NCBI GenBank assembly: GCA_016584305.1
Contig: JACEEZ010013932.1
Location: 37,561 to 101,560 of the forward strand
Source of the DNA: Chionoecetes opilio
Lineage: Eukaryota; Arthropoda; Malacostraca; Decapoda; Majidae
Direction: 5' to 3'
DNA: 64,000 nucleotides
A model generated the notes under the pieces. The model had not been told where the DNA came from. It made no database searches and saw nothing but the letters and a program-made list of their open reading frames with translations. Of this stretch, positions 13,601 to 50,443 are shown piece by piece; position 1 is the first letter of the stretch; every line of letters begins with the position of its first letter. Made by a program: the position numbers and the translations under genes.

Positions 13601-14968
13601 TGATGTGCCTGCCACCCGGGCCCCAGCACGACAGAGCCTGCCACCCCGAGCACCAGCAAGACAGAGCCTGCCACCCCGGGCCCCCAGCACGACAGAGCCT
13701 GCCACCCGGGCCCCCACGACGCCCCCCCGCACCCCGGGCCCCAGCACGACAAAGCCCGCCACCCCGAGCCCCGCACGACAGAGCCTGCCACCCCGGGCCC
13801 CAGCACGATGCACCCTGCCAACCCGGGGGCCCGAGCAACGATGCACCCTGCCACCCCAGGACACCCTTCTCAACAGCAGGGCTTAACCCCAGAGTGTGTC
13901 AGGCCGTTCCTAAGGCTAATCCTCGTCCTTATGGAAAGGGACGGAAGAGGGTGCGGGCCTGCATTTTAACCCAGAATGAGGAGGCAATATCTGACCTGAG
14001 GTTGAAGGCAGAGAAGAGGCAGAAGCTGGAAGACAAAAAGAAGGCAGCGGCTGAAAAGAAAACATTGGGAAAGAAGAAGGGTCCACAGGGGAAGAAGTCT
14101 GTGCCTGTCCCGGAGGAAGACACCACTGACGAGGAGGAGGTTGATGATGTCCGACTTCAGCTGGACGACTCCTCCGAGTACTCGGATGAGGTGGACGACG
14201 AGGGCACCTGGACTTTCAAACATCATACCCTTTTGCTGCGAAAACATCACAGGTGGGGGACTTTGTTCTGGTTCAGTGAAGCTGGAGGAGGGAAGGGTGT
14301 GGGCACATTAGTGTGCTATGTTGCTCAGGTGTTGGCCATCATGGAGGATGGAAAATTAAACCTTTCTTTCCTCCGGATGAAGTCCGCTAACACCCGAGAC
14401 ACGTTCACCTTCCCCACCATCCTAGATGAAGCTTCTGTTGATCCAGAAAAGTGCAAGGGTGTCCCGGTGACCTCCAAGGGCATCACCAAGAGGCAGGCTG
14501 ACCTGGTGAAGGTGTTTCCCCCCCCTGCATGCCTTCAGATGCACTTCTGAATAGTGAGCATAAAAATACCTAGACCTATCTTTTTAAAAAATGTATTTTA
14601 TATGAGCTTAAACTTTCATTTCATCACCTAATAATAATGGTGGGTGTCTAGGCTTAGCATATATGTTGATTTCAGGCAAAAAAACACAATAATGTTTGAT
14701 GTAATATGAGTTTAAAAATATCATACGGTGCCCCCCATACCTGATCCGGTGTCCCCCCTCGTGGGGGGGACACCGGACGAGGTGCCAAAAATTTATAAAA
14801 AACCTTTAAAAGACCCTTATTATCTGAGTTAAGAATTCATGAGGGTACCATAGGTGGGCCATATTGTGAAGTTTGTTTTGGGGACAGTGTGCACTCTCTC
14901 AGGTAAAAAAAGGATTTTTTTTGAATATTTTTCCACCCAATAGTACGGTGTCCCCCCACACCACCCTA
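10674..14968 (+). mobile_element. pogo/Tigger-like DNA transposon, copy 1
   Basis: A 4.29-kb element flanked by TA (10674-10675 and 14967-14968). The ends are related as inverted repeats (GGGTGGGGTGGG...CACCG at the left; CGGTGTCCCC...ACCACCC at the right). Inside are about 1.2 kb of leader with two direct repeats of roughly 320 bp (about 11085-11395 and 11400-11745), a two-exon transposase gene, and a 3' region with a GC hairpin at 14750-14780. It is the most indel-ridden of the three copies. It lies about 70 bp beyond the stop codon of the minus-strand HARBI1-like gene. Confidence 0.85.
11918..14550 (+). pseudogene. pogo-like transposase, copy 1 (many frameshifts)
   Basis: Exon 1 (11918-12057) starts ATGCCTCGC and encodes the HTH of copy 2 with indels. 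Exon 2 (12366-14550) follows a TTACAG acceptor. DDE motif segments are present but in different frames (the DNAECH block near 13120-13140 is readable). The C-terminal third, from the Pro/Thr repeats to the stop at 14548-14550, is open for about 316 codons. The number of single-base changes inside homopolymers compared with copy 2 suggests sequencing error as much as decay. See copy 2 for domains. Confidence 0.75.
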
Positions 14969-17514: not shown

Positions 17515-20500
17515 TAGGGTGGGGTGGGGTCACACCGAACGGGGGGGATCACCGTACGAAGGCTACAACGCGAAAATTAATTCAAATTTCGCGCCACCAT
17601 GCCACCACGGATGCAGCGCCACGCTCAGTGAACTACATGCGAGCAACAGGGTAGCGTCAGCGTCACCTCCGTGTTTACCAGGTAAGAAATTTTATTTTTC
17701 GTATGTTCCTTGTCACTTTTCGCCGTTCTTATATAGTGTCTCATGTCGGCTGTGATGGCGCGATTCTTTTGAGGTAAGTTGCAATACGAGGTATAACCGT
17801 ATTGACATGTTATTGAGTGAAAAAGTAGTGCATGCTTTCGAACAGGCCGCGGTGGCATTATTTACAAAAAAATTGGTGGCGCGGGGGATCAACGTATGGT
17901 GAAGTGCGGGGGATCAACGTACAGTGAAATTTTGAAAAAGCTATATCTTTTGAAATACCTACACAAACATAAAAAAACAGTGATTGGGACTATGTATATT
18001 CGCATGATATAAATGGTGGTGGTGAACTAGTGCATTTAAATTAAATGGAACAGTGTTTTTTTGTGGCATAAAGTTGAAGGTGATTGGTATTAAATTATGA
18101 TGCTATATCAGTGTTATTATGCTATAAGACATGAACTAACTATTATATAAGTGATTTATGTTATTAGAATGATTCTAGAATTAATTTTTTATGGTTAAAA
18201 AAACCATTTAACACTGCATATTTTCGGGGCATGACGTTCGGTGATCCCCCGCATCACTACGATTTGGAAAATCTATATATTTTTAAATACTTAGAAAAAC
18301 ATAAGAAAAAGTGACTGACTATGCATATTAGCATGATATTAAATGGTGGTGGTGAAACTAGTGCATTTAAATTAAATGGAACAGTGTTTTTTTTTTTTGG
18401 TGTAAAGTTGAAGGTGATTGGTATTAAATTATGATGCTATATCAGTTATTATGCTATAAGCACATGAACTAACTATTATATAAGTGATTTATGTTATTAG
18501 AATGATTCTAGAATTAATTTTTTATGGTTAAAAAAAACATTTAACACTGCATATTTTGGGGGCATGACGTTCGGTGATCCCCCAATATGCCAGACTCATA
18601 GTCCCAAAATAATATGGTGGCCATGCAAGAATCGCCTCTACACTGTAAAAAATACTAAGCTAAGCTAACCTAAACTAACCTAACCTAACTATGCATGATG
18701 TCTAATGTCATTAACTCTTTTCAGATCTAACCTAACCTACCGCCATCACCGTCATCATGCCTCGCAAATATGTCAGGAAGAGCGACAAGCAGATGGACCG
18801 CACTGACCTGGAGGCTGCCTTAAGCACCGCGTGGCCACTAGCTGCAGCCTGAAAGAAGCCGCTGACAGATTCAACATCAAGAAAACAACGTCTTGCTGTA
18901 AGTTGCTCTATTTAGTTCCATATCTCCCCAAGGTCTTTTTGTATGACCTCATTCCCACGTCTTCTTTGGTCTCCCTGGGATGAGGTCATGCAAAAAGACC
19001 TCGGGGATAGCTTAAGGGTCTCTAGATTTATAGATTTTAAAATTTATTCATTTTTTGTTAGCTTTTATTGCCAGCAAGGGCCTTCTAAGTCCTAATTAAT
19101 TTCTTTTGTTAAAGGATGCCTTCAAGCGCTCTATTTATTAATTTTTTTGTCAACTTTTGTTGCCAGCAAGGGCCTTTTAAGTCCTAATTCATTTCTTTTG
19201 TTACAGGACGCCTTCTATCTATCGAAGAAGCTGTCGGATGGAGTTACCTATATGGCTGTTGCTTCCCGTAGCAATAGGGTTTTCAGCCCTCAACAAGAAA
19301 TATACATTGCTGATTATACCATCCACGCAGCCAAGATGTTCTACGGCCTGCCCATGAACGATGTGCGTAGGATGGTGTACCAGTATGCCATAGCTTGTGG
19401 GAGCAAGAGCATCCCTGCTGCCTGGGAGAAAGAGAAAATGGCGACAAGGGACTGGTACTATGCCTTCATGAACCGTCATCCAAACCTTGTATTGAAGGCT
19501 CCGGAAGGCATGTCCATTGCCAGGATTGTTGCCTTCAACAAAGTCAATGTGGAAACCTTCTTTAAGGCTTACACATTAGCTTTGGAGAAGTACACATTCA
19601 CGCCGGACCGGATATACAATTTGGATGAGAGTTCATTGTCGACTGTTATGAAGCCAGTCAAGGTTGTGTGTGCGAGAGGCCAGCCAGTAGCCACGCAGGT
19701 AACTCGTGAACGCGGTGACAGCATGACGTTTGTGGGCATTATAAATGCTGTGGGGCAGTCCAAACCTCCAGTGTTTATAATTCCCAGATGCCGATGGAAT
19801 CCCGCTTTCATGAGGAACACGATCTTTGGTTCCAAAGGGATATTGCATCCTAGTGGCTGGATGAATGGTGAATGCTTCGTGCAGACACTTCAGCATCTCC
19901 ATGAGAAGTCTTGTTCTTCTGTAGAGAACAAGATTCTTCTGATCATGGACAATGCTGAATGTCACATGAACATTCAGCCTGTTGAGTTTGCGATAATGCA
20001 TGGTATCGTGATTGTTACCTTGCCTCCGCATACAACAGACAAACTCCAGCCATTGGATGTGAGTGTCTTTGGTCCCTTTAAGACATTCCTGCGTGCCCTA
20101 CTGAACGACCACGCGCTCATGCACCCTAACGAGCACATAACAGTCCACAAGTTGCCAGAGTTTGCTTCTGAGGCATGGACCAAAGCCACTACCCCCTCCA
20201 ACATTCTCAGTGGTTTCCGGGCGACTGGTATATGGCCACTCAATCGCAACATCTTCCCAGATGATGTGTTTGTAGGAGCGCATGTAACCGAGCGACCGGC
20301 ACCACCAGAATTTGTAGTGGAAGTTACTCCAACTTCTTCTGATGGAGGAAGTTCAGATGGAGAGGAGCGACTGGCTGAAGGCCATACCTCAGAAGCTATA
20401 CCCCTTCCCGCTGTGTCTCCCAGGCTAGATGATGTGCCTGCCACCCCGGGCCCCAGCACGACAGAGCCTGCCACCCCGAGCACCAGCACGACAGAGCCTG

Positions 20501-21801
20501 CCACCCCGGGCCCCAGCACGACAGAGCCTGCCACCCCGGGCCCCAGCACGACGCCCCCTGCCACCCGGGCCCCAGCACGACAAAGCCTGCCACCCCGAGC
20601 CCCAGCACGACAGAGCCTGCCACCCCGGGCCCCAGCACGATGCACCCATGCCACCCCGGGGGCCCCAGCACGAGCACCCTGCCACCCAGGACACCCTTCT
20701 CAACAGACAGACTTAACCCCAGAGTGTGTCAGGCGTTCCTAAGGCTAATCCTCGTCCTTATGGAAAGGGACGGAAGAGGGTGCGGGCCTGCATTTTAACC
20801 GAGAATGAGGAGGCAATATCTGACCTGAGGTTGAAGGCAGAGAAGAGGCAGAAGCTGGAAGACAAAAAGAAGGCAGCGGCCTGAAAAGAAAACATTGGGA
20901 AAAGAAGAAGGGTCCACAGCGGAAGAAGTCTGTGCCTGTCCCGGAGGAAGACACCACTGACGAGGAGGAGGTTGATGATGTCCGACTTTAGCTGGACGAC
21001 TCCTCCGAGTACTCGGATGAGGTGGACGACGAGGGCACCTGGACTGCAGCATCATACCCTTTTGCTGCGAAAACATCACAGGTGGGGGACTTTGTTCTGG
21101 TTCAGCTGAAGCTGGAGGAGGGAAGGGGTGTGGGGCACATTAGTGTGCTATGTTGCTCAGGTGTTGGCCATCATGGAGGATGGAAAATTAAACCTTTCTT
21201 TCCTCCGGATGAAGTCCGCTAACACCCGAGACACGTTCACCTTCCCTACCATCCTAGATGAAGCTTCTGTTGATCCAGAACAGTGCAAGGGTGTCCTGGT
21301 GACCTCCCAAAGGGGATCACCAAGAGGCAGGCTGACCTGGTGAAGGTGTTTCCCCCGCTGCATGCCTTCATGATGCACTTCTGAATAGTGAGCATAAAAA
21401 TACCTAGACCTATCTTTTAATAAATGCTATTTTTTATGAGCTTATCTTTCATTTCATCACCTAATAATAATGGTGGGGGGTCTAGGGTTAGCATATATGT
21501 TGATTTCAGGCAAAAAAAAACAATAATGTTTGATGTAATATGAGTTTAAAAATATCATACGGTGCCCCCCCATACTGATCCGGTGTCCCCCCTCGTGGGG
21601 GGGACACCGGACGAGGGTGCCAAAAAATTTATAAAAAACCTTAAATGACCCTTATTATCTGAGTTAAGAATTCATGAGGGTACCATAGGTGGGCCATATT
21701 GTGAAGTTGTTTTGGGCACAGTGTGCACTCTCTCAGGTAAAAAATGGATTTTTTATGAATATTTTTCCACTAATAGTACGGTGTCCCCCGACACCACCCT
21801 A
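17515..21801 (+). mobile_element. pogo/Tigger-like DNA transposon, copy 2 (best preserved)
   Basis: Flanked by TA (17515-17516 and 21800-21801). The layout is the inverted-repeat end, iterated GGGGATCAMCGTA words, two direct repeats (about 17905-18245 and 18250-18580), the two-exon transposase gene, a GC hairpin at 21578-21612, and the 3' end. TA target duplication, CENP-B-like HTH and DDE motifs place it in the pogo/Tigger branch of Tc1/mariner. It is unusually long for that branch, with an extended C-terminal domain. Confidence 0.88.
18757..21384 (+). CDS. pogo/Tigger-like DDE transposase (two exons)
   Basis: Exon 1 (18757-18897) encodes MPRKYVRKSDKQMDRTDLEA and ...CSLKEAADRFNIKKTT, a pogo/CENP-B-type helix-turn-helix. 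A GTAAGT donor and a TTACAG acceptor join it to exon 2 (from 19207). Exon 2 has the DDE_1-type core: YNLDESS (first Asp, codon 19624), LLIMDNAECH (second Asp, codon 19948) and PPHTTDKLQPLDVSVFGPFK (third Asp, codon 20038 or 20056). About nine PATPGPSTTE-like decapeptides follow (20440-20690), then a basic Lys-rich stretch, an acidic stretch (EEDTTDEEEVDD) and a conserved tail with VGDFVLVQLKLEEG, LNLSFLRMKSANTRDTFTFP and ADLVKVFPP before the stop (21382-21384). It is open from 19207 to about 20742. Later indels break the tail, and an extra G near 18890 disturbs exon 1. It should act in the nucleus, cutting at the element ends and inserting at TA. Confidence 0.85.
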
Positions 21802-28770: not shown

Positions 28771-31700
28771 TAGGGTGGGGTGGGGTCACACCGAACGGGG
28801 GGGATCACCGTACGAAGGCTACAACGCGAAAATTAATTCAAATTTCGCGCACCATGCCACAGGGATGCAGCGCCACCCTCAGTGAACTACATGCGAGCAA
28901 CAGGGTAGGTCAGCGTCACCTCTGTGTTTACCAGTAAGAAATTTTATTTTTCTATGTTCCTTGTCACTTTTCGCCGTTCTTATATAGTGTCTCATGTCGC
29001 TGTGATGGCGTGATTCTTTTGAGGTAATTTGCAATACGAGGTTAACCGTTTTGACATGTTATTGAGTGAAAAAGTAGTGCATGCTTCAACAGGCCGCGGT
29101 GGATTATTTACAAAAAATGGTGGCGCGGGGGATCAACGTAATGGTGAAAGGCGGGGATCAACGTACAGTGAAATTTGGAAAAGCCTATATCTTTTGAAAT
29201 ACCTACACAAACATAACAAACAGTGATTGACTATGTATATTCGCATGATATTAAATGGTGGTGGTGAACTAGTGCATTTAAATTAAAGGACAGTTTTTTT
29301 TGTGCATAAAGTTGAAGGTGATTGGTATTAAATTATGATGCTATATCGTGTTATTTTGCTATAAGCCATGACTAACTATTATATAATGTTTATGTTATTA
29401 GAATGATTCTAGAATAATTTTTTATGTTAAAAAACCATTTAACATGCATATTTTCGGGGCATACGTTGGGTTTGATCCCCGCATCACTACGATTTTGGAA
29501 AATCTATATTTTTAAATACTTAGAAAAACATAAGAAAAGTGACTGACTATGCATATTAGCATGATATTAAATGGTGGTGGTGAACTAGTGCATTTAAATT
29601 AAATGGAACAGTGTTTTTTTGTTGGTGTAAAGTTGAAGGTGATTGGTATTAAATTATGATGCTATATCAGTGTTATTTGCTATAAGCACATGAACTAACT
29701 ATTATATAAGTGATTTATGTTATTAGAATGATTCTAGAATTAATTTTTTATGGTTAAAAAAAACATTTAACACTGCATATTTTGGGGGCATGACGTTCGG
29801 TGATCCCCACATATATTGCCAGAATCATAGTCCCAAAATAATATGTGGCCATGCAAGAATCGCCTCTACACTGTAAAAATACTAAGCTAAGCTAACCTAA
29901 ACTAACCTAACTAACTATGCATGATGTCTAATGTCATTAACTCTTTTCAGATCTAACCTAACCTACCGCCATCACCGTCATCATGCCTCGCAAATATGTC
30001 AGGAAGAGCGACAAGCAGATGGACCGCACTGACCTGGAGGCTGCCTTTAAGCACCGCGTGGCCACTAGCTGCAGCCTGAAAGAAGCCGCTGACCAGATTC
30101 ACATCAAGAAAACAACTCTTGCTGTAAGTTGCTCTATTTAGTTCCCATATCTCCCCAAGGTCTTTTGTATGACCTCATCCCACGTCTCTTTGGTCTCCCT
30201 GGGATGAGGTCATGCAAAAAGACCTCAGGGATAGCTTAAGGGTCTCTAGATTTATAGATTTTAAAATTTATTCATTTTTTGTTAGCTTTTATTGCCAGCA
30301 AGGGCCTTCTAAGTCCTAATTAATTTCTTTTGTTAAAGGATGCCTTCAAGCGCTCTATTTATTATTTTTTTGTCAACTTTTGTTGCCAGCAAGGGCCTTT
30401 TAAGTCCTAATTCATTCTTTTGTTACAGGACGCCTTCTATCTATCGAAGAAGCTGTCGGATGGAGTTACCTATATGGCTGTTGCTTCCCGTAGCAATAGG
30501 GTTTTCAGCCCTCAACAAGAAATATACATTGCTGATTATACCATCCACGCAGCCAAGATGTTCTAACGCCTGCCCATGAACGATGTGCGTAGGATGGTGT
30601 ACCAGTATGCCATAGCTTGTGGGAGCAAGAGCATCCCGCTGCCTGGGAGAAAGAGAAAATGGCGACAAGGGACTGGTACTATGCCTTCATGAACCGTCAT
30701 CCAAACCTTGTATTGAAGGCTCCGGAAGGCATGTCCATTGCCAGGATTGTTGCCTTCAACAAAGTCAATGTGGAAACCTCTTTAAGGCTTACACATTAGC
30801 TTTGGAGAAGTACACATTCACGCCGGACCGGATATACAATTTGGATGAGAGTTCATTGTCGACTGTTATGAAGCCAGTCAAGGTTTGTGTGCGAGAGGCC
30901 AGCCAGTAGCCACGCAGGTAACTCGTGAACGCGGTGACAGCATGACGTTTGTGGGCATTATAAATGCTGTGGGGCAGTCCATCCCTCCAGTGTTTATAAT
31001 TCCCAGATGCCGATGGAATCCCGCTTTCATGAGGAACACGATCTTTTTGGTTCCAAAGGGATATTGCATCCTAGTGGCTGGATGAATGGTGAATGCTTCG
31101 TGCAGACACTTCAGCATCTCCATGAGAAGTCTTGTTCTTCTGTAGAGAACAAGATTCTTCTGATCATGGACAATGCTGAATGTCACCATGAACATTCAGC
31201 CTGTTGAGTTTGCGATAATGCATGGTATCGTGATTGTTACCTTGCCTCCGCATACAACAGACAAACTCCAGCCATTGGATGTGAGTGTCTTTGGTCCCTT
31301 TAAGACATTCCTGCGTGCCCTACTGAACGACCACGCGCTCATGCACCCTAACGAGCACATAACAGTCCACAAGTTGCCAGAGTTTGCTTCTGAGGCATGG
31401 ACCAAAGCCACTACCCCCTCCAACATTCTCAGTGGTTTCCGGGCGACGGTATATGGCCACTCAATCGCAACATCTTCCCAGATGATGTGTTTGTAGGAGC
31501 GCATGTAACCGAGTCGACCGGCACCACCAGAATTTGTAGTGGAAGTTACTCCAACTTCTTCTGATGGAGGAAGTTCAGATGGAGAGGAGCGACTGGCTGA
31601 AGGCCATACCTCAGAAGCTATACCCCTTCCCGCTGTGTCTCCCAGGCTAGATGATGTGCCTGCCACCCCGGGCCCCAGCACGACAGAGCCTGCCACCCCG

Positions 31701-33020
31701 AGCACCAGCACGACAGAGCCTGCCACCCCGGGCCCCAGCACGACAGAGCCTGCCACCCCGGGCCCCAGCACGACGCCCCCTGCCACCCCGGGCCCCAGCA
31801 CGACAAAGCCTGCCACCCCGAGCCCCAGCACGACAGAGCCTGCCACCCCGGGCCCCAGCACGATGCACCCTGCCACCCCGGGCCCGAGCACGACGCACCC
31901 TGCCACCCCAGGACACCCTTCTCAACAGACAGACTTAACCCCAGAGTGTGTCAGGCCGTTCCCTAAGGCTAATCCTCGTCCTTATGGAAAGGGACGGAAG
32001 AGGGTGCGGGCCTGCATTTAACCGAGAATGAGGAGGCAATATCTGACCTGAGGTTGAAGGCAGAGAAGAGGCAGAAGCTGGAAGACAAAAAGAAGGCAGC
32101 GGCTGAAAAGAAAACATTGGGAAAGAAGAAGGGTCCACAGCGGAAGAAGTCTGTGCCTGTCCCGGAGGAAGACACCCCCTGACGAGGAGGAGGTTGATGA
32201 TGTCCGACTTCAGCTGGACGACTCCTCCGAGTACTCGGATGAGGTGGACGACGAGGGCACCTGGACTGCAGCATCATACCCTTTTGCTGCGAAAACATCA
32301 CAGGTGGGGGACTTTGGTTCTGGTTCAGCTGAAGCTGGAGGAGGGAAGGGGTGTGGGCACATTAGTGTGCTATGTTGCTCAGGTGTTGGCCATCATGGAG
32401 GATGGAAAATTAAACCTTTCTTTCCTCCGGATGAAGTCCGCTAACACCCGAGACACGTTCACCTTCCCTACCATCCTAGATGAAGCTTCTGTTGATCCAG
32501 AACAGTGCAAGGGTGTCCTGGTGACCTCCAAGGGCATCACCAAGAGGCAGGCTGACCTGGTGAAGGTGTTTCCCCCGCTGCATGCCTTCATGATGCACTT
32601 CTGAATAGTGAGCATAAAAATACCTAGACCTATCTTTTAATAAATGCTATTTTATATGAGCTTATCTTTCATTTCATCACCTAATAATAATGGTGGGTGT
32701 CTAGGCTTAGCATATATGTTGATTTCAGGCAAAAAAAACACAATAATGTTTGATGTAATATGAGTTTAAAAATATCATACGGTGCCCCCCCATACCTGAT
32801 CCGGTGTCCCCCCTCGTGGGGGGGACACCGGACGAGGTGCCAAAAATGTATAAAAAACCTTAAAATGACCTTATTATCTGAGTTAGAATTCATGAGGGTA
32901 CCATAGGTGGGCCATATTGTGAAGTTTGTTTTGGGCACAGTGTGCACTCTCTCAGGTAAAAAATGGATTTTTTATGAATATTTTTCCACTAATAGTACGG
33001 TGTCCCCCGACACCACCCTA
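28771..33020 (+). mobile_element. pogo/Tigger-like DNA transposon, copy 3
   Basis: Flanked by TA (28771-28772 and 33019-33020). It has different outer sequence from copies 1 and 2, so it is an independent insertion and defines the element borders. The internal order is the same as copy 2. Confidence 0.88.
29983..32604 (+). pseudogene. pogo-like transposase, copy 3 (frameshifted)
   Basis: Exon 1 (29983-30123) encodes MPRKYVRKSDKQMDRTDLEA and the HTH. Exon 2 starts at 30429. It breaks early (a TAA at 30565 where copy 2 has the Tyr codon of MFYGLP) and again at several indels (around 30635, 30778, 31048, 31186 and 31447). DDE motifs, the Pro/Thr decapeptides (31539-32021 open) and the conserved tail (32194-32604 open, ending in the same stop) are all present in pieces. 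It is very similar to copy 2, which implies recent activity or error-limited divergence. Confidence 0.8.
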
Positions 33021-33114: not shown

Positions 33115-33770
33115 ATATTTAGGACATAAGAAAATAAGGAAGCTACAAGATGCCGCGAGACTTACACGTGGTAGTTCCTGTTACTTAACACTACCTACCT
33201 CCACCTTTCATCCCCATCCATAACAGTCTAGCCTCCTTTTAAAGCTCCCTATTGACTCCGCACTACCTACATCCACCTTTCATCCCCATCCATAACACTG
33301 TCCAGCCTCCTTTTAAAGCTCCTTATTGACTCCGCTCTACCGACATCCACCTTTCATCCCCATCCATAACACTGTCCAGCCTCCTTTTAAAGCTCCCTAT
33401 TGACTCCGCCCTACCGACATCCACCTTTCATCCCCATCCATAACACTGTCCAGCCTCCTTTTAAAGCTCCCTATTGACTCCGCCCTACCGACATCCACCT
33501 TTCATCCCCATCCATAACACTGTCCAGCCTCCTTTTAAAGCTCCCTATTGACTCCGCACTACCGACATCCACCTTTCATCCCCATCCATAACACTGTCTA
33601 GCCTCCTTTTAAAGCTCCCTATTGACTCCGCACTACCGACATCCACCTTTCATCCCCATCCATAACACTGTCTAGCCTCCTTTTAAAGCTCCCTATTGAC
33701 TCCGCACTACCGACATCCACCTTTCATCCCCATCCATAACACTGTCTAGCCTCCTTTTAACCCTTAAAGT
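33115..33770 (-). repeat. LINE 3'-tail repeat with a 74-bp internal array
   Basis: Begins with the antisense LINE tail ('aataaggaagctacaag', 33136) and then repeats a 74-bp segment; 'gcctccttttaaa' recurs at 33231, 33305, 33379, 33453, 33527, 33601, 33675 and 33749. The array stops at TTAA (33766-33769) and resumes at 42308, so it is split by the insertion described next. Confidence 0.85.
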
Positions 33771-38347: not shown

Positions 38348-41300
38348 ATATGAGGATGTATGCAAGGAATTGAGTGAATGGAAATTCGAACTAGTTGGTG
38401 TGACTGAAACCCATTTAAGAGACAATGTACGAATGCATGATAGTGAGTATGAGATGATTGGAAAGGACGAAAGAAACAAGAGAAACTAGGAGGAGGGGTT
38501 GCCTTCTTTCATAGAAAGGAAGGAAACCTTAAAGTAGATGAGATAGACGTGGGTAATAGTGCTATGAGTGAGGATGTTCTGGCTGCTAGAGTAGAATGTT
38601 TGGGTCAGAACGACAAGGAAAAAAGTTTATAGTGATTGTGGTATACATGACGGTTGAGGGTGATAGAGCAGGGAGAGAGAATAGAAAGAAGTACAACATT
38701 ATAAAGAAGATTTTTAGAGACCATGCCGGAGAGAGTGTGATGGTTATGGGTGATATGAATGCACATCTGGGTATGCTAGGAGAGCAAATAAATAAAAATG
38801 GAGAAATGCTTGCTGAATTTATAGATGAGTTAGAGTTAGAAAACCTGAATGAGACTGTGGCAGAGGGTCGAGTGACGTGGAATGCAAGAAACCAAGAGAG
38901 TGCAATTGATTATGTGTTGGTGAATGGCAAAATGCGAGAGAGTGTTGCTCGAATGTGGATAGATGAAGAGGGAAAAATTGATATTGTGTCTGATCATAAT
39001 ATGCTTGTAGTGGACTGTATGAAGTGGAATAAAAGTGAGCCAAAAGTAAGGACGGTGAAGAACAAATGGAGGTTGAGAGATGCAAAATGGGAAGATTTTC
39101 AAGTGTGTCTGAGTGAGATGTGGGACAGAGAAAGGTACAGGAGGTGAATGAGCTAAATGAGAGACTAACGGAAAATGTGAGGAGCGCTGCACTTAAAAAA
39201 ATAGGGTTTATTAGAACAATGGAAGAAGAGAGTAAATAAACCATGGTGGAATGAGGATATTAGAGAGGCAAGGAAGGAACGAAAAAGGTTAAACAGGAAA
39301 TGTAGAGGGTTAAAGAAAAGGAGGCAATGAAAGTGAAGAAGCGGAGGATGATACCAGAATGCATGGACAGAATATGTGAAACAGCAGCGGACTAACAAAA
39401 CGAAAGATAAGAGATGCGAAAGTTATGTGTGACAGGAGTAAGATCCGATCCCTAAAAGAGAAAGGACTTGCAGGTGGGCGTGAGTGGTACAGATTCATGA
39501 GAGGGGAAAAGATGGCTGGGAATGAAGATGTGAAAGCATTGAAAGTAAATGCTGAATGTGTAACAGATGAGACAAAAATCAAAGAGGTTATAAAAAAACT
39601 TTTGGGAAGACATAGGAGGCGTGGGTGAAATCTTTGACGTTAAGACCAGAATGTATAACGTTGGAAAGAAAAAGATGCGGAAGAGTTGAATGAATGGATT
39701 AGCAGGGATGAAGTAGAGAAGTGTGTAAGGAGGCAAAAGAATGAAAAAGCAGCAGGCCCGATGAAATACCATATGAGATGTACAAGAATGGGGGTGAGGT
39801 GGTGATGACAGGATGACTGACCTATTTAACCGTGTGTGGGAAGAAGAAAGGGTTGCCTAGAAAATGGAATGAATGTAGAGTAACCCTATTGCATAAAGGA
39901 GGATACAAGAGTAAGAATGAATTGAAGAACTATAGACCAATAGCCCTAATGAATACAGTAGGTAAAGTTTTTAGTGCAGTGTTGAAGGAAAGGTTGTGTA
40001 AATGGTTGGAGAGAGCTATGGTGTTAGGTGAGGAGCAAAATGGTTTTCGAGTGGATAGGAGGGCAGAGGACAACATGTTTGTGGTGAATGAAATAATTGA
40101 AAAGAAGGAAAGGGAGGGAAAGACACTGTACCTTGGGTTCCTAGACATTGAGAAAGCCTATGATAGAGTAAACAGAGAAATGTAATGCAAGGTTTTGGAA
40201 AAGGTTGGGTTGAGCCAAAGATAGTGAACATAGTGAGAAGCATGTATGAAGACACTAGAGCAAAATATAGGCTAGGTAGTATAGAAACAGAATGGGTGAG
40301 GAGTGAGAGAGGTGTTAGGCAAGGATGCACTCTGTCCCCAACCTTGTTTAGTTTGTATACTGAGGAACTGGCAGTAAGGATGAGAAGAATGGATGCAGGA
40401 GTGGAGAGTAGGAAATGACAAAATAAGCTTGTTAATGTATGCAGATGATATGGTAGTTATGAGTGAGTCGGCCGAGGAACTCCAGAGCCTGTTAGAATGT
40501 GGTGAATGAGTATGGGAGAGACTTTGGAGTAAAATTTAGCCGTGAGAAAAGTAAGGTGATGATAGTAAATATAACAGAGGATGACAGAAACGCTACATGG
40601 AGACTGGGAGAAAATGAATTAGAACAAACTAGTGAATACAAGTACCTAGGGATGTGCATTAGTTCCAATGGATGTGGAAAAGCAAAGGCTGAAAAGATCA
40701 GCCAGGCCAATCAGTGGGTTGGTCGACTGGGAGTGTGGCAAGGATGAGGGCAAGCAAGTATGATGTGTTGAGGGAAGTGTGGAAAAGTGTGGCTGTCCCA
40801 AGCATTATGTGATGGTATGGAGGTGATTGCATGGAATGAGAGTGAAATAGAGATATGGAAGTGGGACAAAATAAAGTAGCAAGAATGGCACTGAATGCAC
40901 CCAGATATGCAGCGACTGAAGGTTTAAGAGGTGACATGGGATGGAGTACATTTAGGGAGAGACATTCGAAAGCAACACTCAGGTATAAGATCAGACTGGA
41001 ACGAATGGAGGACACAAGATTGGCACGAAAAGTTTATTTGTGGAGTGAATGTAGTAGTAAATGGGGGAAGCGATGCCAAAAATGGTAGAAAGAAGTGGAT
41101 TGCGATTTTGGTGGATGTATCAACTGATAGATGGAAGACCGAATGTAATTGAATGGAAGATGTTGAATGGTGATGAAGAAGGCCTTGAGTGGGATGTGAG
41201 AAAGTGGAAAACTGAGATCGATAGAGTAGTGAAGTATGTGGGGCTGAGTAAGTGGAAAATGAGATGGAGCAAAAGAAAACACTAGAATGGTATAAGGAGA

Positions 41301-43950: not shown

Positions 43951-44706
43951 TATACAATTCTACTAAACCGTAGGTAAACGTATGCTCGACAGACCTGAAA
44001 GTTCATCAGCAGGGAATGGGTACTTGTAGCTGGCTAACCTGTAGAGCATCAAAGGGAAGGGTTTCATGCCAGCTGCGACCTTTGACCTTTCTCTACCATA
44101 TGACCTTCAATACCTGGTTGTTCTTTGCCCTGTTAATTATGGAAAAAAAACATGCCTCATTTTTCTTGCCAATGGTAATGCATATATAGGTTCTCTACAT
44201 AATACTAAGATAGTTCTTCATATACCCCATAGGCTAGGTCATACCGGAGATAGTGGGAAGCGTATCACCAGCCGTCTAACCTCATGAAAATTGTGGGAAA
44301 AGTTGACATTAACGCCTTCCTGCCCAGATCTTTCCTTTGCTATATAAAATTGTCTGTTGTTAACCATAAAATTACGAAAAGTAACTTAATATACCAAATG
44401 AGTTAGTGGACAAGGATACTAAGCAGGTCATAGCTATAAATTATTGCTTATAGTCACTAAAAATCGTCTAATGGTACCCAAACAGAGCTGGGCACTAAAT
44501 ACATTGAATGTATTTAAATACTAAATACTAAATACATGGGAGAAATGTATTTAAATACTAAATACTAAATACATTTTACGAATGTATTTAAATACTAAAT
44601 ACTAAATACATCAATTGTATTTAAATACATTTGTAAATACATTTTAAATACACACAAATTTTAACATGTCCGAAAAAAATGAATTTCCTTAGGATTTTGA
44701 GTTTCC

Positions 44707-46825
44707 TTAAGGCGGCGTCACACTAGCACTTTTTCCGTCTAGTTTTTTTCAGCGACTTTCTACAAACTAACAATTTTCTGACTGCAAAGTCTGCAAGCCG
44801 TCACACACACAGAATCGTTCGCCTGCATCACCAGTCAGCTGTTCGACTGTAAACAAACATGGTTCTTTGTGGTTTGTGGTTTAACCACTTTGTGGTTAAG
44901 ATTATGTTTCATTAAAACCTATAAGGTTAGGTTATGTTTCATTAAAACCTATAAGGTTAGGTTAGGTTTCATTAAAATCTGGTTAGGTTAGGTTAGGTTT
45001 ATTTATTTTTTTTTTTTTTCTTTGCGCAAAATAAAACTATCTCCATTACAACACGCACCTATTGTAGGCCAAGAAAAAATAGTCTTTGTCTCTGAAAACG
45101 ACCGCGAAACTCTCGTCCATTATTACCGACGGTTATAATTACGTGCCTTGTAATGCATTAAGTTGTAGTAGAACAATTTCTTTCATGACATCGTAAAAAA
45201 AAGTAAGCTGAAAGGCTTGTGGAGCCCGCCAACTTCTGCGGATTATGCACCAAAAACATAGTACCGAAATAGGAAATGTAGGTACTTATTACTTCTATTG
45301 CCGTTTCTTAGCTGTGCTTTCCTGTGCCTGTATGTTTGCTTTTTGTGCAATGAATTTTCTAAATTCAGATAAGTGAGGTTAAGTTTTGGTTAGGTTAGGA
45401 GGCATTCATAATTCTTAACACCACTGTGTGTCAGGGTGTGTCTGGTGAGTTCAGAATGGGGTATATAACCTTTTCCCACACTCTAGGCATTCATGGTTCT
45501 TAACACCACTGTGTGTCAGGGTGTGTCTGGTGAGGTCACTCTTTGTAGTAAATCTTTTCCCACACTCTAAACATTGATAATTCTTAACACCACTGTATGT
45601 CAGGGTGTGTGTGGTGAGGTGACCCATTGTAGCAAATCTTTTCCCACACTCTAAACATTCATAATTCTTAACACCACTGTGTGTCAGGGTGTGTATGGTG
45701 AGGTGACCCATTGTAGCAAATCTTTTCCCACACTCTAAACATTCATAATTCTTAACACCACTGTGTGTCAGGGTGTGTGAGGTGAGGTCGCTCTTTGTAG
45801 TAAATCTTTTCCCACACTCTAGGCATTCATGATTCTTAACACCACTGTGTGTCAGGGTGTGTTCGGTGAGTTGACTCTTTGTAGTAAATCTTTTCCCACA
45901 CTCTTAAATATTCATAATTCTTAACACCACTGTGTGTCAGGGTGTGTCTGGTGAGTTCAGAACGGGTATAAAACCTTTTCCCACACTCTAGGCATTCATG
46001 GTTCTTAACACCACGGTGTGTCTGGTGAGGTCACTCTTTGTAGTAAATCTTTTCCCACACTCTAAACATTCATAATTCTTAACACCACTGTGTGTCAGGG
46101 TGTGTGTGGTGAGGTCACTCTTTGTAGTAAATCTTTTCCCACACTCTAAACATTCATAATTCTTAACACCACTGTGTGTCAGGGTGTGTGTGGTGAGGTC
46201 ACTCTTTGTAGTAAATCTTTTCCCACACTCTAAACATTCATAATTCTTAACACCACTGTGTGTCAGGGTGTGTGAGGTGAGGTCACTCTTTGTAGTAAAT
46301 CTTTTACCACACTCTAGGCATTCATGATTCTTAACACCACTGTGTGTCAGGGTGTGTTTGGTGAGCTGACTCTTTCTAGCAAATCTTGTCCCACACTCTA
46401 AACATTCATAATTCTTAACACCACTGTGTGTCAGGGTGTGTTCGGTGAGTTGACTCTTTGTAGTAAATCTTTTCAATCGAGTCATGCGAGAGACTGTTGG
46501 CTGTTATATAGAACCGGCTTTTAAATGTATCTACATGTACAATAGTCACTTGAATATTTTTAATACTTTTAAACGTATTGAATTATAATTTGCAAAAACT
46601 TACTGATTTATATCGAATATCTTTAAAGTAATCACTATGGATTTTGATTTGACTAAGAAAGTTGACTTCAACTTTGCAGACAAAGACGATCACGAGCGAC
46701 TGCCTCAGACTGACTGATCAAGACGGACTAACTAGTCAGAGCGAGAAAAAACTAGTCAGAGCGAGAAAAAACCAACGAAGTTCGACTAACTAGACGGAAA
46801 AAGTGCTAGTGTGACGCCGCCTTTA
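44707..46825. mobile_element. PIF/Harbinger-type TIR element carrying a zinc-finger array
   Basis: TTA (44707-44709) and TTA (46823-46825) flank a 2.1-kb element whose 35-bp ends are identical inverted repeats, starting AGGCGGCGTCACACTAGC and running to CCGTCTAGTT (44710-44744 and 46788-46822). The interior has, from the left, GGTTAGG-type repeats (44875-45000), a segment shared with 34349-34387 and 35090-35127, and then the minus-strand C2H2 array. No transposase is present. The 3-bp TWA duplication points to PIF/Harbinger. Confidence 0.85.
45395..46485 (-). CDS. C2H2 zinc-finger array, about 13 fingers
   Basis: The minus strand encodes fingers of 28 residues (84 bp): [21 protein letters not shown] joined by the linker SGVKNYE in place of the usual TGEKPY. 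C-x2-C-x12-H-x3-H is intact in most. Variable helix parts include [36 protein letters not shown] and YTRSELTRH, so only a few specificities are repeated. The first finger (ATG at 46485) lacks its CxxC half. Three breaks are seen: an extra T at about 45904, a 10-bp loss at about 46013 and an indel at 45456. Open parts are 45988-46485 and 45451-45711. The near-identity of units implies recent tandem amplification. A DNA-binding role is the family expectation; expression is unknown. No KRAB, ZAD or BTB domain precedes it. Confidence 0.7.
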
Positions 46826-47194
46826 GAAATTTCCTTCTCAGGCCTAAATTGCCTTGAAATCAGGACATTTCCTTGGCAGTGGAAACCCTGGTTCACTGTA
46901 ACATCAGGATTGCCAGATAGTTGGGCGGGTTTATGGCCAAATTAACTGATAAAAAAGTATTTAAATTTTTATATTAAATGTATTTAAATACTCATAAAAG
47001 TATTTAAATACTGTATTTAAATACATGACAACCAATGTATTTAAAAATACATTTCTAAATACATAAATGTATTTAAATACGTATTTAAATACAATGTATT
47101 TAAATACTGCCCAGCTGTGTAACCAAATTACAATGGAAACTACGCTCCGGGTCTCAAGGGGTTCAACAGAAAGAAGGAATAGTATATACATAAC

Positions 47195-48352: not shown

Positions 48353-50443
48353 CTGTGGTAGGTAGTGCGGAGTCAATAGGGAGCTTTAAAAGGAGGCTAG
48401 ACAGTGTTATGGATGGGGATGAAAGGTGGATGTAGGTAGTGTTAAGTGACAGGAACTACCACGTGCAGGTCTCAGGGCCTCTTGTAGCTTCCTTATTTTC
48501 TTATGTTCTTAATAGGGAGCTTAAAAAGGAGGCTAGACAGTGTTATGGATGGGGATGAAAGGTGGATGTAGGTAGTGTTAAGTAACAGGAACTACCACGT
48601 GCAGGTCTCAGGGCCTCTTGTAGCTTCCTTATTTTCTTATGTTCTTAATGGGGAGCTTAAAAAGGAGGCTAGACAGTGTTATGGATGGGGATGAAAGGTG
48701 GATGTAGGTAGTGTTAAGTAACAGGAACTACCACGTGCAGGTCTCAGGGCCTCTTGTAGCTTCCTTATTTTCTTATGTTCTTAATAGGGAGCTTAAAAAG
48801 GAGGCTAGACAGTGTTATGGATGGGGATGAAAGGTGGATGTAGGTAGTGTTAAGTAACAGGAACTACCACATGCAGGTCTCATGACCTCTTGTAGCTTCC
48901 TTATGTTTCTATGTTCTAAAGCACACAACACGCACACATGCACACACTCACCTCGGATAGCTTGGCCTCCGTGGCAAAGTAGCGACAGATGTTAGGTATG
49001 AGCTGGCCCAAGTAGCGGTCGTTGGTGGTGTAGCGCTCCACCAGCCACCCCCAATGGGCCCTGCAACCACCACAGATTAGATTTTAGATATTTATCGACC
49101 ACAAAAAATACAAATATACGATTCAGCAATTTTTTTTTAAGCACGGTAGAACAAGAAGTAACGGATTCAAGCTGGAATAGCGTAGAGATCATGAGAGATT
49201 GAAAAGGACAACATGCAAGAGGGACATAAAAATAAATAGTTTCCCGTATAGAAGCATAGAAGCCTGGAATAACCTTGATGCAGAAGTGATTAATGGAAGA
49301 AGTATTCAGGACTTCAAAGGCAAGCTGGATAATAGTAGATTTGGAGACGGGATGTTACAACTAGGTAAATACACACACACACACACACACACAACACACA
49401 CACACAATGCCTTACCTCACCCAATCCCAGACAAGGTCGCTGCCTGCTGGGTTGGTGGAAATGTAAATTTAAGGGTGGACAGAAAGTTTTGTCTGCGTAC
49501 ATTTTCTTCCTTCATGGAGAGCTCGATGTACCTGGCCGGCGAGAAGAGACTGGTTTTAAAAATATACGAGGGAATATAATGTTAGGAGAGTAAAAGGAGG
49601 AAGGAGGGTGACAGGGATTAATAAAGGAAGTAATAAAAATAAAATAAAAAATAAAAATAAATAAATAAAAAAATAAAAAAAAGTGATTATTCGAAGGTGA
49701 AGAAAGTTTGGATGAAAAAGTAAGTCAAAGTTAACAACCAGGGAAGGAAAAAATTAAAAAAAATACTGACGCTAAACAGAAAGGATATAAATAGGGACAA
49801 ATAGGGTGGTAATGATTGGAAGGGACTCAGTCGTCGGGTAGTTAGTGCAAAGTTTTAGGGAGGCTTTAAAAGGAGACTGGAAAAATTCATGGATGGGGAT
49901 GAAAGGGGTGGATGTGGGTAGTGTTAAGAAACAGGAAGTACCACGTGTGGGCCCTCACGGCCTCTTGTAGCTTCCTTATTTTCTTATATTATGTGAGGTG
50001 TTTGTCATTTAATGCTAAGAAAATCATCTCTCTCTCTCTCTCTGTTCTTATATGATGTGGTTTTTGGGTTGCCATCTAGTGGTCACCTCTTTAAGACGGC
50101 AGGGTCCGGTTTTGTTGGCCATCCCGTAGTAAGGTTGTCTATGGCGGTGGCGCTGGTCTCCTTGAGGGCTCGCTGCACATCACTCCCACACCCTGGCGCC
50201 GCCCCCGACCACCACGCCCCCCCGGGAACACTGAACAAACACATCAACACAATCATTATTAAAATCAAGGTCTATTTGTTTCCCTCTACAAGAATGATCT
50301 AGTGTACCAAATACTTAGAATAATTATTAACCCCTTCACACCCAGATCTTTCCTTTGCTATAAAAAGTGTACGTTGTCGAGCCATAAAATAAACAAAGCA
50401 ATGAACAAAGCCACAAACACAATTATTATTAACCCCAGGACGT

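Follow-up and report, generated by a model that had tools for sequence, protein, structure and literature searches.

A non-autonomous PIF/Harbinger-like element carrying a C2H2 zinc-finger array in the snow crab genome

Structure of the element and its setting

We analysed a stretch of 64,000 nucleotides from a contig of the snow crab, Chionoecetes opilio (the window; all coordinates below refer to it unless a contig is named). As had been observed before from the letters of the sequence, a transposon of 2113 bp lies at 44710-46822, without a transposase and with a minus-strand array of 84-bp C2H2 units. The element, its parts and its immediate surroundings are as follows.

44483..47119, no strand assigned: possible hAT-like MITE enclosing the finger element, with ends CAGAGCTGGGCA.. 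and ..TGCCCAGCTGTG, by eye
44707..44709, no strand assigned: left TTA target-site duplication, read in the sequence
44710..44744, plus strand: left terminal inverted repeat, 35 bp, read in the sequence and found by inverted-repeat search
44710..44862, plus strand: MITE-derived left end, matching finger-less sisters of about 0.8 kb (seven elements, L060-L066) at 84-87%
44863..45402, no strand assigned: segment not matched by the finger-less sisters, containing a 30-bp minisatellite at 44894-45000
45403..46474, minus strand: captured C2H2 zinc-finger array, about 13 units of 84 bp in three reading frames, from Tandem Repeats Finder, Pfam and the frames
46475..46822, minus strand: MITE-derived right end, matched from the array edge onward in six of seven sisters, and the source of an ATG for the array
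46788..46822, minus strand: right terminal inverted repeat, 35 bp, read in the sequence and found by inverted-repeat search
46823..46825, no strand assigned: right TTA target-site duplication, read in the sequence

The 35-bp ends are perfect inverted copies of each other (44710-44744 versus 46788-46822) with TTA on both sides, and no transposase frame was seen among the open reading frames of the window copy inside 44710-46822, which bears out the preliminary description of the boundaries. The inverted-repeat search returns a 42-nt pair at 95%, flanking bases included. The window contains the first 20 bp of the end nowhere but at the two element ends; the number expected by chance is 0.00. The minus-strand array of about 13 fingers described between these ends was recovered by Tandem Repeats Finder (45403-46474, 12.9 copies, 88% match), and Pfam finds zf-C2H2 in the two longest window frames with E-values of 4.9e-37 and 1.8e-31. 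The Krueppel-type motif C-x2-C-x12-H-x3-H is present and repeated, the linker between fingers is HSGVKNYEC and not of the TGEKP type, and KRAB is absent from the 25 best of the 36 and of the 31 Pfam families matched by the two window frames. In the window copy the array is split into pieces of 171, 64 and 150 aa, so that, as assembled, this copy encodes no single protein. Two peptides from the left part of the element matched no Pfam family above cut-off, and Rfam returned nothing in the 64-kb window at gathering score.

The finger element may itself be nested in a second MITE, since possible MITE ends lie on both of its flanks (about 44483 and about 47119). This possible outer MITE, which may be hAT-like, is flanked by TACCCAAA and TAACCAAA, alike at 7 of 8 positions; no other complete copy of 44483-47119 was seen. 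Elsewhere in the window, one 30-bp minisatellite occurs at three places (13607-13857, 20436-20687 and 31658-31909); the second of these copies falls within an open frame of 548 aa that has a DDE_1 transposase domain. Two tandem arrays at 33189-33760 and 48375-48917, with units of 74 bp and 136 bp, have units that look partly reverse-complementary by eye. A 185-aa frame at 38590-39144 carries an endonuclease-reverse transcriptase domain (PF14529) and is probably a retrotransposon remnant.

Copies in the genome and finger-less sisters

A search of the genome (1.94 Gb, 20,818 contigs) for the exact 33-bp core of the end gave 681 matches, 346 forward and 335 reverse, in which finger-bearing and finger-less types are counted together; the reversed control gave 0. 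The element is thus not confined to a single copy. With the left 101 bp as query there were 962 candidates, 40 of them scored. Matches of 100-101 bp at 99-100% number 40 and include the window's own copy, and one further match is partial, over 35 bp. We took 40 regions, made up of 39 of the 40 full matches (the one on C2322, near a contig end, was omitted) and the partial match on C116. The array is present in all 40, including the window's own and the five regions outside the 35 described below; because the left end used to draw the sample comes from the finger-bearing type, this figure cannot be carried over to the 681 ends as a proportion of copies with fingers.

In 35 of the 40 regions the two ends are no more than 4.4 kb apart, at spacings of 1369-3448 bp, and a 36th region (L030) has both under looser matching. 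In the 35 copies the array stands between the ends in one orientation to them (35/35, as assembled), and the non-array left and right parts are matched in all, in a few over part-length only; for these flanks the divergence from consensus is about 1.9%. In three cases two of the 35 copies are one locus in two contigs, which leaves 32 independent loci, so that one and the same unit is present at several independent places, as in Pack-TYPE elements. TTA or TAA is identical on both sides in 28 of the 35 copies and at 26 of the 32 independent loci, with C before the duplication in 23 of the 28 and G after it in 20 (by eye), giving a CTWAG-like target. The right 348 bp as query gave 1189 candidates, 40 of them scored, at 95-100%; of the new places, part of that on C3675 was read. 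In other collections, two viral and five prokaryote contigs share 16 or 17 bases with the end motif, which we took as chance, and the array had no match among phages.

The assignment to a superfamily is by ends and target site. The 3-bp TWA duplication of PIF/Harbinger is found in finger copies and finger-less sisters alike, and the identical ends of 35 bp fall within the range of about 25-50 bp given for PIF/Harbinger terminal inverted repeats in PMC2572040; together these features suggest a PIF/Harbinger-like element. Harbinger transposase (PF13359) is abundant in the genome, all 150 scored places among 1203 candidates lying over the cut-off. Nine of the 150 listed PF13359 loci were examined for an autonomous partner in pieces of 4.2-4.5 kb, and none of the nine has these ends.

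The same ends also enclose elements without fingers. In the first 100 places listed for the 33-bp end, a count by eye gave 21 inverted pairs less than 10 kb apart: 10 of 761-856 bp, 10 of 1686-2941 bp and one of 6004 bp. Seven of the ten pairs of 1686-2941 bp are among the finger copies read. Seven of the ten short pairs were fetched (L060-L066), and none has a match to the array; five of the seven have identical TWA on both sides. They share the first ~153 bp of the finger element at 84-87% and its right part at 83-94%, and this right homology starts no more than 2 bases from the array edge in six of the seven (30 bases further on in L065). Based on the shared ends and on the break in homology at the array edge, it appears that the finger element is a MITE with a replaced interior. 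The replaced part (44863-46473) measures about 1.6 kb and is two-thirds array; the ATG ahead of the array is part of the MITE sequence.

The pair of 6004 bp (L059, C860:262913-268916) was considered as an autonomous element and ruled out, because it consists of two finger-less MITEs, with unlike flanks, around 4.4 kb of unrelated DNA. Capture by Pack-CACTA elements is thought, according to the review PMC13317346, to start from a two-element arrangement, to which the C860 pair is akin. Such a pair is a natural setting for capture by the outer ends.

The host finger family and the history of the array

A protein search with the cargo returned 491 proteins. Among the 120 listed, the best E-value belongs to a bird zinc finger (44% identity); swimming-crab proteins with the linker type HSGVRNYEC are among those of highest identity, which reach 65% over part of the length. 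Residues 90-170 of one swimming-crab protein, covering the N-terminus and part of a finger, matched 12 proteins when used as query, including some from Scylla and the snow crab (Chionoecetes opilio) and one wasp protein over 57% of the query; among named sources, the family N-terminus is found mainly in true crabs. In the snow crab genome, an 88-aa composite N-terminal query gave 10,110 candidates, and all 150 that were scored, contig duplicates still included, match at E 2e-30 or better with 66-72% identity, in open frames of up to 632 aa and with several per contig. A 233-aa query also lists frames of 1501 and 2054 aa.

We read seven host genes (L067-L072 and L082). Six have an N-terminus like VGPGSSMSGREQQDQSASGVGRHRGDGKNHLEAGSS, the piece of L082 starting inside the N-terminus, and the seven carry from 7 to about 19 fingers of the transposon unit type, five of them ending in HTFRHTGLREFKCDICSKCFKTK. 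A 53-aa piece of one host N-terminus has no Pfam match, and so no KRAB. Fingers and SGVKNY linker are shared with the transposon array at a median of 4 mismatches in 84, and of the 87 host units that passed the motif filter, 60 lie at 5 or fewer of 84 bases from a transposon type, one identical unit being counted within the 60. The preliminary description had called this linker atypical; it is not so here, because a very large gene family in the same genome has it. Judged by likeness of sequence, the donor of the cargo is one member of this C2H2 family and is known at family level, at which level the element is, like Pack-TYPE transposons, a terminal-inverted-repeat element without transposase, with a piece of a gene family that the host also has at other places in its genome.

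That host and transposon units are near-identical as DNA, 60 of 87 differing by 5 bases or fewer, would also suit a cargo acting as RNA. Small RNAs from the transposon arrays might target the host finger family, or silencing of the element might harm that family and in this way protect the element; we regard either as improbable. We give as little credence to a wider scheme, in which arrays near-identical to a huge crab-type finger family that may police transposons would feed small RNAs or recombination back onto the family, silencing of the element would harm the host, and the arrays would be a mobile reserve from which new host genes could obtain fingers.

A third way for the cargo to matter would be as a functional zinc-finger protein useful to the transposon, which might bind the element's ends or protect it against silencing, and on this the arrays themselves bear directly. 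Their constant orientation to the ends in 35/35 copies is in keeping with such a protein. Against it, the number of units in the 35 copies with both ends varies from 2.8 to 26.9. Altogether there are 533 whole or partial units, 245 of them indel-free 84-mers, and about nine types recur. Type by type, the longest arrays follow the order E K S T T J A R Y E S J J A I A K S I A R Y, and many shorter arrays look, by eye, like internal deletions of it; E K S T I A R Y, for one, is found at six loci (in L026 without the first unit). Gains are seen as repeated blocks in L033, L036 and L081.

The reading frames point both ways. On the side of a protein, L042 has a 213-aa open frame, the 233-aa query lists three more places with a 213-aa frame, L021 and L026 have an open frame through a truncated array, and L081, in which TTA and one end are seen, is open over at least 524 aa. 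On the other side, L042 is the one copy of the 35 with a single frame from the first unit to the usual stop, the first finger of the array is without its cysteine half, and in about 30 of the 35 arrays the last finger has the same +1 shift, after which the frame runs into a stop (shift absent in L020, L021, L027, L032 and L034, and ambiguous in position in L040). Frameshifts as proof of decay are weakened by L016 and L017, which are one locus in two contigs with 16 and 3 indel events; this difference indicates that assembly adds indels and inflates counts of lost frames.

Patterns of substitution separate the time before capture from the time after it. In the nine founder types, contact codons (-1, 2, 3 and 6) have pN 0.369 and pS 0.099, and scaffold codons pN 0.017 and pS 0.103. 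Host units show the same pattern, with pN/pS of 0.414/0.143 at contacts and 0.050/0.145 on the scaffold, which indicates that the array was shaped in host genes. For changes after capture we used indel-free units from the 32 independent copies lying 1 to 6 bases from the nearest type. With each distinct change counted once there are 100, of which 23 are synonymous versus 23.7 expected (p 0.87), and on scaffold codons 55, of which 15 are synonymous versus 13.9 expected (p 0.72). Changes confined to one copy give the same result, both overall (69, 15 synonymous versus 15.6 expected, p 0.87) and on the scaffold (41, 10 versus 9.8, p 0.95). Counting per occurrence, the nonsynonymous ratio is 0.86 overall and 0.67 on scaffold codons, and in 17 low-noise copies, picked by indel rate, 0.73 and 0.55. 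This weak deficit of amino-acid changes would favour a protein, but it disappears when each change counts once and can arise because shared variants count repeatedly; weak constraint on the array could also lie behind it. Changes since capture look neutral, and the cargo apparently behaves as passenger DNA.

A rough comparison of indels in 31 copies gave 375 events in 36,627 bp of array and 66 in 10,408 bp of 5′ flank (10.2/kb versus 6.3/kb), obtained with two aligners, of which the array aligner splits long gaps, and after removal of one event per copy to allow for the fixed shift. Multiples of three make up 4 of 405 indels in the array and 3 of 66 in the 5′ flank.

Given the neutral test and the broken frames, a working protein kept by selection is rejected as the main reading, and we consider it very unlikely. 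The same results, changes that fit neutrality and a full frame in 1 of 35 copies, tell against the active zinc-finger gene or self-targeting factor that the preliminary description had entertained; what holds of its interpretation is the non-autonomous PIF/Harbinger type, by ends and TWA, with a finger cargo gained by gene capture.

Origin of the element and known systems

An ordinary host zinc-finger gene or minisatellite between unrelated inverted ends, to which a tandem, variable and minisatellite-like array might point, can be dismissed almost entirely, since 35 copies have the same set of parts between the same ends, 28 of them flanked by identical TWA, and there are sisters without fingers.

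We are confident, though short of certain, that the element is a Pack-type PIF/Harbinger-like MITE whose interior was replaced by host-finger DNA and which was multiplied in trans with its cargo unselected. The middle of a non-autonomous PIF/Harbinger-type MITE of about 0.8 kb would have been swapped for about 1.6 kb of foreign DNA that included finger-coding sequence from one member of the very large host C2H2 family. The new Pack-type element would then have been multiplied in trans by a Harbinger-type transposase, with insertion at CTWAG-like sites and TTA/TAA duplication. The array would have been long on arrival (about 22 fingers) and would since have changed in length by recombination between units, loss of units being commoner than gain and the array not being kept as a protein. 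In this account the ends, duplications, copies, finger-less sisters, break at the array edge, donor family and near-neutral change since capture are observed, and we infer the transposase, the step of capture, the length of the founder array and the excess of loss over gain.

On this reading the locus offers a clear and recent animal example, present in many copies, of a Harbinger-like element that has taken up a gene fragment, and because the uncaptured sister element and the donor family are in one genome, the age and the steps of the capture can be worked out. A large zinc-finger family with its diversity at DNA-contact positions comes to light as well. The role of this family is perhaps transposon control, and that possible role of a crab-type family is now testable.

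KRAB-ZNF genes are an expanded C2H2 family with many loci and near-identical tandem fingers that differ at contact residues. The crab donor family has the same features, as do the hemipteran ZF271-like genes, a finger-family expansion treated in the milkweed bug paper (PMC6444547). It differs from both in having its own N-terminus without a Pfam match and SGVKNY in place of TGEKP, and the element, unlike expanded C2H2 families, holds a captured part only. The text of PMC10547256, which deals with transposons as drivers of zinc-finger evolution, does not contain the word 'captured'. In open papers, to which the search was limited, we recognised neither a finger array in a terminal-inverted-repeat element nor such a crab finger family; gene capture by such elements is already known, and it is the finger cargo and the host family for which these papers gave no description.

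Non-autonomous Harbinger MITEs resemble the element in its 35-bp terminal inverted repeats, TWA duplication and sisters of about 0.8 kb, but not in its ~1.6 kb of foreign DNA with fingers. Pack-TYPE transposons include Harbinger-PIF members in rice and maize according to PMC8903248. In the Harbinger-PIF members described there, as in the crab, a terminal-inverted-repeat element without transposase carries captured gene pieces, and most PIF members have TTA/TAA duplications. That work concerns plants (the word 'animal' occurs 0 times in its main text) whereas the crab element is from an animal; and, unlike the PIF elements described there, the crab copies descend, as far as read, from one finger-bearing form and have an array of variable length. 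A parallel within animals is the Harbinger element Turmoil-1 of C. elegans, which carries captured pieces of rsp-2 and cpg-3, as described in PMC2572040. Both belong to the Harbinger superfamily, come from an animal and carry host coding fragments. In Turmoil-1, by the account given there, the capture lies inside long ITRs, a transposase is present, and there are one full copy and eight fragments; the crab element is non-autonomous, has 681 exact ends in the genome (both types together) and carries a finger array.
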